Shown in pieces: positions 6,321-11,703 of a stretch of DNA of 64,000 bases. Source of the DNA: Ahniella affigens (GTDB lineage: Bacteria; Pseudomonadota; Gammaproteobacteria; Xanthomonadales; Ahniellaceae); NCBI RefSeq assembly GCF_003015185.1, contig NZ_CP027860.1, positions 2,294,001 through 2,358,000 of the forward strand. Direction: 5' to 3'. The notes beneath the pieces were generated by a model, which was given only the letters and a program-made list of their open reading frames with translations, ran no database searches and was not told where the DNA came from. Made by a program: the position numbers and the translations under genes. The first letter of the stretch is position 1; each line of letters begins with the position of its first letter.

Positions 6321-7136
6321 TCAGAGCGAGATCAGCGTGACGGATTCGCAGTTGTTATCGATGCTGTCAAACGGGTCGGCGCGAACAATGTCCTGACCCA
6401 AGCCACAATCGATGGTGTCACGGATGCCGTCTACGGCGTGGATGCGGTCGCTGCCGCTGCCGCCGCGCAGGATGTCGGCGCCAGTGCCACCATCGAGAAA
6501 GTCGTTGTAGCTGCCGCCATCCAGCGTATCGTTGCCGGCCTCGCCGTACATCGTGTCATTGCCGCTGCCGCCATAGAGTTGATCGGTGCCACTGCCGCCG
6601 AGCAGATCATCATCGCCCGCTTCGCCGTAAAGCGCGTCAATGCCGCCCTCGCCGTTCAGGAAGTCGGAGCCGGAGCCGCCAAAAAACTGATCCTCTTCGA
6701 TGCCGCCGTTGAGGTCGTCATCGCCCAAACCCGCCTGAACCGACAGTTGATAGCCGCCGAGCGTCGCGACGGTCTCGTTGACGACCAACGTGTCGTTCTG
6801 GTTGTCGAGTTGCATCGGGAAGAACACCAAGTCGCCCGCCGCGCAGCGGATGGAAATGACGCTCCCGGTCGGGAACGGCGTGCAGCCACTCAGTCCGGCG
6901 AAGTCGCGAATGTCGAGCACTGGGTTTCCGGAAACAATATTCGGCTTGATCTCGATGGTGTTGACTTCGTTGAATCCGGCGTCGTAGTCGAGCACCGATG
7001 GCGTGTCCGAAATCGTTGCGGCGTAGCTGGTTGTGGTCGACAGCACTGCTGTCAGTAAAACGGCCAGTACGGCTTGTGGCGTGCGGGCATTGATGATTGC
7101 GCGACGAGCGTGGGTACTGATTGTGTGACGGTTCAT
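6321..7136 (-). CDS. Secreted RTX-type calcium-binding repeat protein
   Basis: A 271-residue protein with a signal peptide (about 1-40, ending S-Y-A-A) and a 110-residue N-terminal domain. A block of nine-residue glycine/aspartate nonapeptides follows (about 155-250) of the G-G-x-G-x-D-x-L type, such as GGSGNDTMYGEAGNDTL. These bind Ca2+ and fold as a parallel beta roll. The ATG at 7136 has GGAGG 7 bases upstream. The repeats end in an Ile/Asp-rich cap with two Cys. The likely location is outside the cell, often through a type I system, but the Sec-like signal here argues for another route. No enzymatic domain is seen. Confidence 0.85.
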   Translation of the reverse strand: MNRHTISTHARRAIINARTPQAVLAVLLTAVLSTTTSYAATISDTPSVLDYDAGFNEVNTIEIKPNIVSGNPVLDIRDFAGLSGCTPFPTGSVISIRCAAGDLVFFPMQLDNQNDTLVVNETVATLGGYQLSVQAGLGDDDLNGGIEEDQFFGGSGSDFLNGEGGIDALYGEAGDDDLLGGSGTDQLYGGSGNDTMYGEAGNDTLDGGSYNDFLDGGTGADILRGGSGSDRIHAVDGIRDTIDCGLGQDIVRADPFDSIDNNCESVTLISL

Positions 7137-7225
7137 GGTGATCCTCCAAGTAGTTGATCGATTGTTTGGCACCGTGGCGTGGCGACGGTGCGCTTCTGTC
7201 GGTGGTGTCGCGCTTCGATGCTCAA

Positions 7226-7374
7226 GGAGCCTCTGAACAAGTTCAGAGGCGATGCGGGCCATGGATGGCCCGCCCAGAATCAAGCACGCAAGTGGTTGAT
7301 TCTGGAGCACTGAGTCCGGACACGTGCCGGACTCAGTGCGGGTCTGAAAGTCCAGGATGGACTTATTCAGACCC
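7226..7374 (+). repeat. Five-hairpin dispersed repeat, copy A (149 bp)
   Basis: Five consecutive inverted repeats occupy almost the whole unit. S1 is 7229-7250 (GCCTCTGAAC/GTTCAGAGGC). S2 is 7254-7273 (GCGGGCCAT/ATGGCCCGC). S3 is 7275-7304 (CAGAATCAA/TTGATTCTG, extended). S4 is 7307-7339 (13-bp perfect stem GCACTGAGTCCGG). S5 is 7340-7374 (GGGTCTGAA..AGTCCA/TGGACT..TTCAGACCC). Copies B, C and D have exactly the same length. It lies 90 bp upstream of the RTX gene start. No open frame is conserved. Confidence 0.92.
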
Positions 7375-7479
7375 TCCTCAACGATCGATCTGGCGCGGGA
7401 CTCGACGAGGGGGAACACTAGTGACGAAACAAAGCGGTATTCACTGCGGATCGTTAGGTCAGCGGCATGACTGAAGACA

Positions 7480-7516
7480 GTGCGCTTTGTGCACGTTTTA
7501 CGCGTGCGCTTTGTGC
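7480..7516. repeat. Short direct repeat GTGCGCTTTGTGC x2
   Basis: GTGCGCTTTGTGC occurs at 7480-7492 and again at 7504-7516, spaced 24 bases start to start. It lies between repeat copies A and B. It could be a duplicated protein site or a slip product. Confidence 0.5.
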
Positions 7517-7530
7517 GCATTCGGCGTTAG

Positions 7531-7679
7531 GGAGCCTCTGGACAAGTTCAGAGGCGATGCGGGCCAGGGATGGCCCGCCCAGAATCAAGTACGCACGTGC
7601 TTGACTCTGGAGCCATGAGTCCGGACAAGTGCCGGACTAATGGCGGGCCTGAAAGTCCAGGATGGACTTATTCAGACCC
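7531..7679 (+). repeat. Five-hairpin dispersed repeat, copy B (149 bp)
   Basis: Same orientation and length as copy A, starting 305 bp after it. S1 has a G-T pair (GCCTCTGGAC with GTTCAGAGGC). S4 reads GCCATGAGTCCGG with CCGGACTAATGGC: compared with copy A, two stem pairs have changed on both arms (A-T to C-G and C-G to A-T), which keeps pairing. The MITE-like element begins three bases after its end. Confidence 0.9.
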
Positions 7680-7681
7680 GC

Positions 7682-8012
7682 CTTACAGACTGTGTGAAAA
7701 CCTTTGGGCAGCACAAAATTTGGCGCTTCAACATAGCCTCGGCGCGGCTGCAAGACCTTCAAACCCACCCCGGATCAAGTCCGGGGTGACGAGAGGTGGA
7801 TTGGAACTCCTTGGGGAACCGATCCTTTCTAGCGTCTGAAGCAACGACTTTGCCTCGACGGACACTCTCGCGATTCGTCACCCCGGACTTGATCCGGGGT
7901 GGGTTTCAGGCTCGCGGCAAACTGACCCATCATTTGCACTCATCATCGCTTCCAAATCCGATCGGCGAGGTTGCTCGAACCAGTCCTTTGTTGTTTTCAC
8001 ACAGTCTGCTTA
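7682..8012. mobile_element. MITE-like element with 16-bp TIRs and CTTA flanks
   Basis: Perfect 16-bp terminal inverted repeats CAGACTGTGTGAAAAC (7686-7701) and its complement (7993-8008) bound a 323-bp element. CTTA lies directly outside both ends (7682-7685 and 8009-8012), as a 4-bp target duplication would. Inside is a second, perfect 32-bp inverted repeat (7761-7792 and 7875-7906). Each arm of that is itself a hairpin of the ACCCCGGA-TCAAG-TCCGGGGT type. No protein is encoded, so any movement would need a transposase in trans. Confidence 0.7.
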
Positions 8013-8157: not shown

Positions 8158-9090
8158 TTGTCAGCAATTGAATCAACGCTTCAGCTCCCCTGCCTCGGTG
8201 CGGGTGTGGGATTGCGGGCCAAGCATTTTCGGACCGTGATCAAGGAGCGCCCAGCGATCGACTGGTTCGAGATCATTTCTGAAAACTTCATGGACAGCCA
8301 GGGCTGGCCGGCGGAAGCGCTCTCGGAAATTGCCCGACACTATCGCGCTGTTCCGCATGGCGTGTCGCTGTCGATTGGATCATCGGAACCCTTGAATCAA
8401 GCCTACTTGAAGCGACTGAAACAACTGGCGGATCGAATCGACGCGCCTTGGGTGTCAGACCATCTCTGTTGGACCAACTGCAATGGCTTCAACAGTCACG
8501 ATCTGCTGCCGATGCCTTACACCGAAGCGTCGCTTCAGCATGTGGCAGACCGCGTGAAGCACGTGCAAGACTTCTTGGGTCGGCGTCTGTTACTGGAGAA
8601 TCCGAGCAGTTATCTGAGCTTCAAATCGTCGACCATGCCGGAGTGGGCCTTTCTCGCGGAACTCGCGGAGCAGGCCGATTGCGGCGTGTTGTTGGACGTC
8701 AACAATGTCTACGTCTGCCAACGTAACCATGGTTGGGATCCCCACGCGTATCTGGCGGCGCTCCCTGCGGGTCGCATTGGGCAAATGCATCTGGCCGGCC
8801 ATACCGACTATGGCAGCCATTGTATCGATACGCACATTGGGCCCGTGCCTGGGAGCGTGTGGGCGTTGTATGGCGACGCACTGGCTCGATTTGGATCGGT
8901 CTCAACGTTGATTGAATGGGACGAAGCGATTCCGGATTTTCCGATCTTGCAGGCCGAAGCGACGCGCGCGAAGGCCTGGATGCAAGGGCAAGAAAGGCCC
9001 GTCAGCGTTGCGACACCTACCAACCCGTCGTCCGAATTCAAGGTGTCCAATCCGGTCGACTTCATGGTGGGTTATGAGGTGGATGTTTGA
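8158..9090 (+). CDS. DUF692 multinuclear-iron RiPP-modifying enzyme (BufB/HvfB/MbnB family)
   Basis: A 310-residue TIM-barrel DUF692 protein. The TTG at 8158 is chosen because GGGAGG lies about 5 bases upstream and the family starts just before G-A-G-V-G-L-R. Conserved blocks carrying likely iron ligands are I-S-E-N-F (E42), P-H-G-V-S-L-S (H67), S-D-H-L-C-W (H102), L-E-N-P (E147), L-D-V-N-N (D180), H-L-A-G-H (H211), D-T-H-I-G-P-V (D224, H226) and E-W-D (E253). Known relatives (MbnB, TglH, HvfB, BufB) use two or three irons to modify Cys residues of a peptide, together with a partner protein. The partner (DUF2063) follows directly. No small precursor gene is adjacent. The gene begins about 150 bp after the MITE-like element. 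Confidence 0.9.
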   Translation: MSAIESTLQLPCLGAGVGLRAKHFRTVIKERPAIDWFEIISENFMDSQGWPAEALSEIARHYRAVPHGVSLSIGSSEPLNQAYLKRLKQLADRIDAPWVSDHLCWTNCNGFNSHDLLPMPYTEASLQHVADRVKHVQDFLGRRLLLENPSSYLSFKSSTMPEWAFLAELAEQADCGVLLDVNNVYVCQRNHGWDPHAYLAALPAGRIGQMHLAGHTDYGSHCIDTHIGPVPGSVWALYGDALARFGSVSTLIEWDEAIPDFPILQAEATRAKAWMQGQERPVSVATPTNPSSEFKVSNPVDFMVGYEVDV

Positions 9091-9836
9091 TGGCTTGGCA
9101 ACAGGATCAGCAATGGTTGTGGCAGCAGATTCTCGCCGGCGCGTCGGTCGCAAGTTCGGCAACAGAAATGGTTCATGCGGGCCACCTGCCCGTCGACGCG
9201 CGCCTCGCGATCTATGCTGGCGGCTACCGACTGCGGTTATTGGAGTGCATGCGGGCCGCGTTTCCGCTGTTGCAATCGGCACTTGGTGACCCGCTGTTCG
9301 ATCGCTTTGCGCTGGATTATCTGGATGCTCACCCGTCGCAGAGCTACACCTTGCATGATCTGGGCGCGGGATTTGCCGGCCATCTGGAACAGACACGCCC
9401 GACGAATCCAGAAGACGACGGCGACTGGGTCGACTTCATGATTGCCCTCGCACGCTTCGAACGCGTGTTGTCCGAAGTGTATGATGGTCCTGGCGACGAG
9501 CACGAGACGCCCAACGTTTTGCAACTCGCCAGCAGCTTGCGATTATTGTCGCTTAGCCACCCGGTGCACGAATCGCTGCGCGCGCATCAGCGTCAGGAGC
9601 CGGTGTCGGTGGTTTCGGCAAAACCGTTGTATCTGGCCGTTGTCAGACAGTCTTTTCGGGTCAGCGTTGAGCCCATTACGGCGACGGAATTTGCGCTCCT
9701 GCAGCGTGCTGCAACCGACGCGCTGGATCGTGTGCTGATCGAAGTGCGCGGGGGCGTGGGGGAAGCGGGTCTGGAGCGTTGGCTACACAGAATGCGTGAG
9801 CGCGGAATTATTGTTGGCGAGCACTGGCGCGGCTGA
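9090..9836 (+). CDS. DUF2063 partner protein (BufC/HvfC-type)
   Basis: A 248-residue protein whose N-terminal domain matches the HvfC/BufC domain: R-L-A-I-Y-A-G-G-Y-R-L-R-L-L-E at about 35-50, A-F-P-L-L-Q-S-A-L-G-D, D-A-H-P-S-Q-S-Y-T-L and, later, A-L-A-R-F-E-R. In known pairs this subunit recognises the precursor and holds it for the DUF692 enzyme. The ATG at 9090 shares its A with the stop codon of the upstream gene, so expression is coupled. The C-terminal half (about 165-248) is less conserved. A hairpin lies between this gene and the convergent ferritin-like gene. Confidence 0.87.
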   Translation: MAWQQDQQWLWQQILAGASVASSATEMVHAGHLPVDARLAIYAGGYRLRLLECMRAAFPLLQSALGDPLFDRFALDYLDAHPSQSYTLHDLGAGFAGHLEQTRPTNPEDDGDWVDFMIALARFERVLSEVYDGPGDEHETPNVLQLASSLRLLSLSHPVHESLRAHQRQEPVSVVSAKPLYLAVVRQSFRVSVEPITATEFALLQRAATDALDRVLIEVRGGVGEAGLERWLHRMRERGIIVGEHWRG

Positions 9837-9882
9837 CGGCCGTTTCAGTCGGTGCCAGAACCATCGAACTTCTAGTGCATCA

Positions 9883-9909
9883 GCGAGCCCGGAATGCATC
9901 CGGGCTCGC
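9883..9909. terminator. Hairpin between convergent genes
   Basis: GCGAGCCCGG (9883-9892) and its exact complement (9900-9909) enclose a 7-base loop, 46 bp after the DUF2063 gene and 15 bp after the ferritin-like gene end. There is no clear T-run, so it is terminator-like rather than a canonical terminator. Confidence 0.45.
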
Positions 9910-9924
9910 GTCCACATCGAACTA

Positions 9925-11703
9925 TCAGGTGGAGGTTGGCGTTACCGCCGCGCGACGCGCGGTGCCGTCGTAGTTCACGCCGCCATTGGCGTGCTGACTA
10001 TTCGGCGCCGGCAGATTTGCGACGTTTTGCGCTTTCGCAAACAGCTTCCGGGCTTCCTGCCACACGCTGTCGCCCTTCTTGACGTCCCGGCCCGTGCATG
10101 TGCTGGGCAGATCGGCGCTGAACAGTTGCTTGTCCGAGATCGGCACTTGGCAGCCGCCCTTGCCTTTGCACGAGTTGGCGCCGGGCACATAGAGGTCTTC
10201 GCACGGCAGCGGCTGGTTCTGCTTATCGGTGGCAATGAATCCGCAGGCACCCAAGTGCGTGCAGGTATTGCCGCCCACGCACGTGTGAATATCGGCCGTT
10301 GCGCACGCGCCATCGCCAGCCTTGGTGCCAAGACCGCCCCAACCCAGGCCTTTGCAGGTATTCAAACCTTGGCAGACGTTCATGTCCTTCTCGCCGCCCT
10401 TGCGGATTTCTGCGGTCACCGCGTCCCAGTGGTACAGGCACAGCGGATCAGCCTCGTCGAATGCGGCTTGCAACTGATCGTCGGTGACGCCCGGAACGTA
10501 GGAGAAGCTCGGCACCTGGCCCCATTGCCAGAGCTGCGGGATCAGATACTTGAAGGAGGTCATGACCTCGGTAAACGTGAATCCACCGCCAGGGGTCGCT
10601 GGATCCAGACCGCCGCCCGTCTTCATGCCCTGGTTGATGATATCGAGCGTCCGCGAATACGCGAGGTTGATGCAGGTGTCGAGTGCACCGGGCGAGGCAA
10701 CCCAGTTTGGACGATCCGGGTCTTCGGCGTTGAGCGCATTGAACACGGTGCGTTGTGCCGGCAATTGCGCGACGGCGGCGTCATAGTCGACATTGCCATC
10801 GAGCGTGGCTTTGAGCGCGACAAATCGATCATAGTGGCTGGTGCAGTCCCAGGCGGCGAAGCGGCTATGCGGGGCCGACTGGTATTGCGTCGGAATCATG
10901 CCGTTGCTGCCATCGTCACCTTGCTGCAGGACTTTGGCGAGGTTCGGGAACCTGGTCGCAAAATCCTGCACGACGCCCGCGCCCTCGCCCTGAAAGCTGA
11001 CGGCATTGGCCAAGTGCGCGATGTCGCGCTTGCACTTCACCACGGTGTAGATATAGCGGCTCTGGAAGGTCAGATAATCCATCTGATTCGGCGCTTCCGT
11101 CTGCTGGTTCGGTACCGCATTGGGAATCACTGGGCCGGGTTCGAGCGGGAACAGCTCCTCCAGCAGCACCGCTTTGTCGAGCAGCACCAACGTGGCGTGG
11201 TAGAGCGCCGAAATGGAATCGTAGGCGACTTCCATGTTGGGCGGTGGAAAGCCCCCTTCAGCCGGCGTTTCGATGCCGATCAGCACATCCAGTGTCGCCG
11301 GCAGATTGTTGAGCCCGACGCCTTTGACGGAGGGCAAATGCGGTACCGGACCCGTCCAGTCGAAAATGCTCGGGTCCAACTGTGGGCTGAAGCCCACGGC
11401 ATTCGCAATGTTGGACGCGCACTGCAGGTGATACATCTCCTGTACGGCAACCGACAGCGATTTCTGCTGAATCCAGAAGAACAGATTCTGCTTGCTGCTG
11501 CCGCCGTTGCAGTTCTCTTTCGGAACGTACTGGTAGCTGGAATTGCCCGTTGCGACCGAGAACGAATAAGTGGCCGTCAGATACAACGGAATCGTGTAGA
11601 ACTCCACGGCGCAAATGGCACTCAGATGCGCATGTAACGCCTGAATGATATCGCCGGAATGATTGAGTCTGCTCAGGGTGACTGCTGGCTTGCCGGTACT
11701 CAT
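9925..11703 (-). CDS. Ferritin-like (VioB-type) protein with Cys-rich bufferin-like tail
   Basis: A 592-residue protein. The N-terminal part (about 10-240) looks like the ferritin-like domain found in VioB-type iminophenyl-pyruvate dimer synthases, with possible metal ligands E34, E89 and H92 (E-M-Y-H). Residues about 442-540 hold ten Cys (444, 450, 467, 475, 481, 487, 501, 512, 518, 536). They sit in motifs such as C-Q-G-L-N-T-C-K-G, C-V-G-G-N-T-C-T-H-L-G-A-C-G and N-S-C-K-G-K-G-G-C. These resemble the C-x-G-x-N-x-C-K-G repeats of bufferin-type metallophore precursors, and the DUF692/DUF2063 pair lies immediately next door in convergent orientation. There is no signal peptide at the N-terminus. 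The ATG at 11703 has GAGGAGGG about 10 bases upstream. The ferritin-like call is fairly safe; the substrate role of the tail is inference. Confidence 0.8.
   Translation of the reverse strand: MSTGKPAVTLSRLNHSGDIIQALHAHLSAICAVEFYTIPLYLTATYSFSVATGNSSYQYVPKENCNGGSSKQNLFFWIQQKSLSVAVQEMYHLQCASNIANAVGFSPQLDPSIFDWTGPVPHLPSVKGVGLNNLPATLDVLIGIETPAEGGFPPPNMEVAYDSISALYHATLVLLDKAVLLEELFPLEPGPVIPNAVPNQQTEAPNQMDYLTFQSRYIYTVVKCKRDIAHLANAVSFQGEGAGVVQDFATRFPNLAKVLQQGDDGSNGMIPTQYQSAPHSRFAAWDCTSHYDRFVALKATLDGNVDYDAAVAQLPAQRTVFNALNAEDPDRPNWVASPGALDTCINLAYSRTLDIINQGMKTGGGLDPATPGGGFTFTEVMTSFKYLIPQLWQWGQVPSFSYVPGVTDDQLQAAFDEADPLCLYHWDAVTAEIRKGGEKDMNVCQGLNTCKGLGWGGLGTKAGDGACATADIHTCVGGNTCTHLGACGFIATDKQNQPLPCEDLYVPGANSCKGKGGCQVPISDKQLFSADLPSTCTGRDVKKGDSVWQEARKLFAKAQNVANLPAPNSQHANGGVNYDGTARRAAVTPTST

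Follow-up and report, generated by a model that had tools for sequence, protein, structure and literature searches.

We analyzed a 64,000-nucleotide stretch of the Ahniella affigens genome (hereafter the window; part of contig C1 of a two-contig, 6.1-Mb genome), in which an enzyme pair of the kind that matures Cys-rich peptides faces a ferritin-like protein. A gene for an MNIO enzyme (formerly DUF692; MbnB_TglH_ChrH) of the BufB type (8158..9090, + strand) is followed by a gene for a DUF2063-type partner (PME-type 1; 9090..9836, +), and the two are convergent with a gene encoding a 592-amino-acid ferritin-like protein with a Cys-rich tail (9925..11703, −). The original prediction, made from the sequence alone, had described this arrangement and had proposed that the tail is the substrate of the pair. 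The overlap, the convergence, the coordinates, the length of 592 residues, and the ten Cys within residues 440-540 were all confirmed on the window sequence. Likewise, no small precursor gene lies beside the pair among open reading frames of at least 80 amino acids, and inspection of the N-terminus of the ferritin-like protein showed no signal peptide. The proposal that the tail is the substrate gained support from comparative genomics, from which we infer that its Cys are chemically modified.

The window MNIO matched PF05114 with 358 bits and passed the NCBIfam BufB model (NF050167) with 362.9 bits, the cut-off being 310; this cut-off was also exceeded by the MNIO homologues of three related loci (L004, L038, and L041). 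Its start codon is TTG, with GGGAGG just 5' of it. The metal-ligand and catalytic residues are kept (H67, H102, E147, D180, H211, D224, H226, E253, and D255), and in an alignment of 47 MNIOs the His, Asp, Glu, and Asn ligand columns are invariant and Asp255 is conserved. The enzyme was also aligned with 3bww. By its score and its active-site residues, the enzyme fits the BufB type and would be expected to oxidize Cys. The DUF2063 gene begins at an ATG (9090) that overlaps the MNIO stop codon, with a TTG at 9087 as an alternative start. Its product scored 67.7 bits against PF09836, above the gathering score, and seven further partners from homologous loci all passed the Pfam cut-off with 61-73 bits. 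The HvfC model matched the window protein weakly, to residue 244 (53 bits, below the cut-off). When the seven homologues were scanned for an RRE-type C-terminal domain, the sole result was a sub-threshold match to NGO1945_C in the L004 partner, and no sequence match to the DUF2063 partner was found among PDB entries.

The third protein has a ferritin-like helical bundle at residues 16-312 (10768..11658, −). PF12902 (Ferritin-like) matched residues 32-245 with 65.4 bits (cut-off 22.3). This was the only domain recovered when the full-length protein was scanned with Pfam and NCBIfam; the tail scored only when scanned alone. Within a 14-sequence alignment, E34, E89-x-x-H92, E145, E240, and H290 are invariant, and these residues, being of the di-metal-binding kind, are candidate di-metal ligands. 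In the AlphaFold model, the bundle takes up residues 16 to about 312 at fair confidence and the tail comes out disordered (pLDDT about 30), so that no tail fold was obtained. The best solved relative is CC_0557 of Caulobacter (PDB 3hl1, PF12902; profile 2e-20; Z 18.0, root-mean-square deviation 3.4 over 248 residues), which shares the bundle but matches the ferritin-like part only and not the tail. Next came bacterioferritins and Dps with Z of 9-11, values that helical bundles reach easily. The tail itself (residues 440-540; 10084..10386, −) holds ten of the protein's 17 Cys, at positions 444, 450, 467, 475, 481, 487, 501, 512, 518, and 536; by permutation, the chance that any 99-residue stretch holds that many is 0.0025. 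Eight of the ten were invariant in a first alignment with the four closest homologues.

The queries for relatives were the ferritin-tail protein or profiles built from it, and the MNIO never served as a query. They were run against GTDB contigs (three loci), 398 genomes of the same order, 398 genomes of the phylum, and 347 genomes of Acidobacteriota (the phylum of a Bryobacterales metagenome-assembled genome). The MNIO and DUF2063 proteins of the window were then used to search the flanks of these relatives. Overall, the tail was fused to or beside a ferritin-like domain in 17 loci of Pseudomonadota and Acidobacteriota, namely the window and 16 further loci. It is fused in 15 (the window, L003, L004, L005, L037-L040, L042-L045, L093, L094, and L097) and split off in two (L041 and L096). 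An MNIO gene is adjacent in all 17, and a DUF2063 gene is visible in 16, the L096 stretch ending before it. Ten tail-less ferritin-like loci (L046-L055), including two paralogues from the window's own genome, lacked both genes within the flanking DNA retrieved, which in most cases extended about 8 kb per side. The co-occurrence anticipated by the original prediction therefore exceeds chance (17/17 against 0/10), with a Fisher-type figure of 1.2e-7 that is descriptive only, several loci being close relatives.

Fourteen of the 17 loci have their genes in the order ferritin/tail, MNIO, DUF2063, and neighboring genes are separated by small gaps or overlap; for L096 this applies to the part in view. 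Bufferin operons have a fixed bufABC order (PMC12452194), and the fusion therefore occupies the usual place of bufA. A convergent layout occurs only in the window, L003, and L037. The genes around the tail-bearing loci otherwise vary between lineages, which points to the ferritin-tail, MNIO, and DUF2063 genes as a self-contained unit.

The two split loci separate the tail from its carrier. In L041, the tail is a gene of its own, flanked on one side by a separate gene for the ferritin-like protein (PF12902, 132.6 bits) and on the other by the MNIO gene; it starts with an ATG at 7502 preceded by AGGAG and encodes about 209 amino acids. In L096, the ferritin gene is followed, after about 35 bases, by a gene for a tail protein of 210 amino acids and then by the MNIO gene. 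Lying between ferritin and MNIO, the tail is therefore a separable unit sitting in the precursor position. The possibility that these splits are frameshift artefacts was rejected, as each tail gene has its own start codon and ribosome-binding site and an AT-rich spacer in L041 carries stops in the coding frames. The split tail of L096 (1285-1917, −) has 16 Cys in total, with extra clusters that include NGCGGGC near the N-terminus and several near the C-terminus.

Bufferins are small peptides that bind copper, and we compared the tails with their known precursors. The BufA2 model (NF050166) matched the window tail with an E-value of 0.069 (13.4 bits) and the L004 tail with 7e-4 (19.7 bits), both far under the cut-off of 60 bits, which by this measure places the tail outside BufA2. 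The tail profile, in turn, found small 12-Cys precursors with signal peptides in Acidobacteriota (L098-L106), with E-values down to 5e-17 (L098); a representative sequence of this type reads CKGHNSCKGKG...KHDCKGKNDCKGLGGC...KNSCKGKGGCEVPV. Nearly all of these precursors directly adjoin MNIO genes, and one (L106, in genome G1096) had no MNIO within the fetched flanks. The 12-Cys precursors themselves match BufA2 (5e-10, 3e-7, and 1.4e-17), with up to 63.7 bits against the cut-off of 60. The Cys of the window tail align one by one with theirs, and tblastn reached 2e-12 in a small set. In Smith-Waterman comparisons in which Cys were fixed and all other residues shuffled, the window tail gave z = 12.8 against L098 and z = 6.8 against classical BufA2, and none of 1000 shuffles reached the score of either comparison. 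A homemade BufA2 profile separated most tails from their Cys-fixed shuffles but not those of one subgroup (L038, L039, L040, L044, and L045), which have the same tail without the second Cys unit and whose direct match to the BufA2 hidden Markov model is weak or absent. The resemblance to bufferin-type precursors that had been suggested is thus weak toward BufA2 and strong toward the 12-Cys precursors. Because the tail is homologous to MNIO-linked 12-Cys precursors that match BufA2, it is, as judged by sequence, a Buf2-type, 12-Cys-like domain that lacks a signal peptide.

No Sec signal peptide was visible at the N-termini of the fused or split proteins on inspection. A GxSVWxxARxxF helix follows the Cys core (residues 544-558; 10030..10074, −); it is a conserved feature of both the fused and the split tails, and signal-peptide Buf2 precursors lack it. 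Preliminary evidence indicates that the signal peptide forms part of the Buf1 recognition sequence (PMC12452194), and by analogy this helix could replace the signal peptide as a recognition element. Two of the ferritin-tail proteins (L003 6001-8118 and L037 7755-9923) continue beyond the tail with a further domain of about 110 residues (GVNV...LIGDG...), and just downstream in L003 (10291-11703) an FMP-type heme-binding protein (NF040572) carries a similar domain as a fusion.

In a tree of 47 MNIOs, the ferritin-linked enzymes group with those of 12-Cys Buf2 precursors in one clade (support 1.0), which lies within BufB and is distinct from HvfB. All of them carry an EWD motif followed by Glu, Ala, Gly, or Ser (EWDE in the window), whereas classical BufB2 has ERDD or ERDS and HvfB has ERDF. 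The residue after the catalytic Asp has been proposed as a specificity site, with Phe in HvfB/FonB and Asp in BufB2 (PMC13097082).

The window's genome has only one other MNIO (C1:45595-46380), about 2.3 Mb away, which belongs to a complete precursor-HvfB-HvfC system (L002 681-2908, −). The precursor there is of the EGKCG/HvfA type with many CGEGK repeats, and all three components score above their cut-offs (HvfA-type repeat domain NF050137, 91 against 19.5 bits; HvfB equivalog, 433 against 360; HvfC, 280 against 142). The motif of this HvfB is ERDF, unlike the EWDE of the window enzyme. No DUF2282 gene was found in the window's genome or in any of the ten genomes tested, and a genome-wide search for BufA2 in the window's genome gave a single chance-level match and none above chance; the window pair is therefore left without another precursor of known type. 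Moreover, in five genomes (G261, G326, G579, G736, and G1121) the single MNIO is the ferritin-linked one, and none of these has a DUF2282 gene. A separate precursor elsewhere in the genome, which the original prediction had named as a competing account, thus does not explain the pair: the one present sits in its own hvfABC unit, and several genomes have a ferritin-linked MNIO only.

Taken together, the adjacency, the bufABC-like order, the split genes, the tail homology, the MNIO clade, and the genomes with a single MNIO argue that the pair modifies the ferritin tail. We consider it probable that MNIO and DUF2063 form a BufBC-type pair whose dedicated substrate is the Cys-rich C-terminal domain of the neighboring ferritin-like protein, a signal-less relative of 12-Cys Buf2 precursors. 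Such a relative would have become fused to a ferritin-like di-metal protein. By comparison with characterized relatives, the DUF2063 partner would bind or dock the tail and the MNIO would oxidize several of its Cys, probably to 5-thiooxazole, the group installed by characterized MNIO-DUF2063 pairs; in one such case, a FonA substrate with two repeats loses 8 Da (PMC13097082). More speculatively, the product might stay in the cytosol, its modified tail holding a soft metal, copper or another, next to the ferritin-like center. Several points weigh against this interpretation. The support is genomic, so that tail modification is itself something we infer, and copper is a proposed metal. The tail scores under the curated BufA2 cut-off (60 bits) and is linked to BufA2 through intermediates. 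Several loci are closely related, so that they cannot be counted as independent events. The pair and the ferritin gene converge in the window and in its two closest relatives, where the three genes thus do not form one operon. Finally, DUF2063-type partners correlate with signal-peptide precursors (PMC12452194), and this substrate has none.

Other explanations divide the same evidence differently. The tail could be an unmodified structural or disulphide- or zinc-binding domain, with the pair acting on another precursor. Cys-rich domains are common and the window pair lies on the opposite strand from the ferritin gene, but the MNIO adjacency (17/17 against 0/10), the homology of the tail to MNIO-linked precursors, the shared MNIO clade, the dedicated hvfBC of the genome's other precursor, and the genomes that carry a ferritin-linked MNIO only make this account quite improbable. 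The pair might instead serve the tail plus unlinked precursors in trans, the linkage being part of the story. Against the absence of any DUF2282 or BufA2 gene from the window's genome, where the only other precursor found is of the EGKCG type and comes with a dedicated HvfB bearing an ERDF site, one can set the many precursors that are not linked to MNIO genes (PMC12452194) and the precursor of G1096 without an MNIO in its fetched flanks; on balance we regard such service in trans as unlikely.

The ferritin-like domain, rather than being a mere carrier, might also be part of the maturation machinery, as a di-metal oxidase or a metal-loading chaperone acting with the MNIO on the tail. L041 and L096 keep the ferritin-like gene, co-directional beside the MNIO, though it is not the carrier there, and the candidate di-metal ligands are invariant. 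However, most bufferin systems do without a ferritin-like protein, and the tail-less paralogues without a nearby MNIO imply an independent role for the domain; a part in maturation is conceivable but doubtful. Returning to the tail as the dedicated substrate, a tentative extension would be a cytosolic metalloenzyme with an MNIO-made thiooxazole array in its own chain, in which the di-metal center and the tail act jointly, for example by oxidizing and holding copper. If so, MNIOs would make protein-bound cofactors and not exported peptides alone.

The closest known systems are the Buf2/BufA2 bufferins (BUF_6/12Cys; NF050166), with which the ferritin-linked loci share the CxGxNxC and NxCKGxGGC units, the Cys spacing, the precursor-MNIO-DUF2063 order, and the MNIO kinship. 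They differ in that the ferritin tail has no signal peptide, is joined to some 400 amino acids of ferritin-like domain, falls below the BufA2 cut-off, and has extra loops and the C-terminal GxSVWxxARxxF helix. The captophorins, or 5-thiooxazole metallophores (fontiphorin, oxazolin, and gonophorin; PMC13097082), likewise combine an MNIO-DUF2063 (PME1) pair with a Cys-rich substrate, but with EGKCG repeats and an ERDF motif in place of C-x-G-x-N motifs and EWD[EAGS]. The HvfABC system of the same genome uses the same enzyme and partner families and differs by its separate EGKCG precursor and its HvfB equivalog (433 bits). Bufferin domains on larger proteins were already known (MerC|Buf1, MerC|Buf2, Buf1|cytochrome c|FGE-sulfatase, and Buf_EGKCG|EF-hand), the MerC fusions putting the bufferin domain in the periplasm (PMC12452194). 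A fusion of a bufferin-type tail to a ferritin-like protein is not among them: the 2025 MNIO survey mentions none, and the word ferritin is absent from its main text (PMC12452194). A literature search on MNIO and ferritin-like proteins, of limited coverage so that an earlier description is possible, returned nothing relevant, with PF12902 appearing only near fungal lodA/lodB.

These loci suggest that MNIOs modify large, folded, non-exported proteins, which the survey raised as a possibility only, and their presence in two phyla is an exception to its correlation between DUF2063 and signal-peptide precursors (PMC12452194). They also suggest a link between copper-buffering chemistry and the ferritin superfamily. 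The split tails of L041 and L096 offer natural small, signal-less substrates for studying bufferin recognition, with the GxSVWxxARxxF helix as a candidate.

Further genes adjoin several of these loci. An FMP peroxidase-type heme-binding protein (NF040572, 266 bits) is encoded directly upstream of the ferritin-tail gene and in the same direction in L004 (1372-2217) and L005 (5122-5967); the neighboring NF040572 gene in Bryobacterales and L003 is at most a hint of a link to redox stress. A gene of about 422 amino acids with no assigned function is conserved after DUF2063 in L039 (11182-12450), L044 (4071-5369), and L045 (11659-12927). Within the window, a scan for promoters and terminators was uninformative. 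Upstream of the MNIO gene, two near-identical reading frames (MARPESST..LDSG..; 7154-7474 and 7570-7839) form an apparent repeated element, and the frame at 6321-7520 (−) encodes a protein with GGxGxD-type repeats that, by eye only, resemble RTX calcium-binding repeats.

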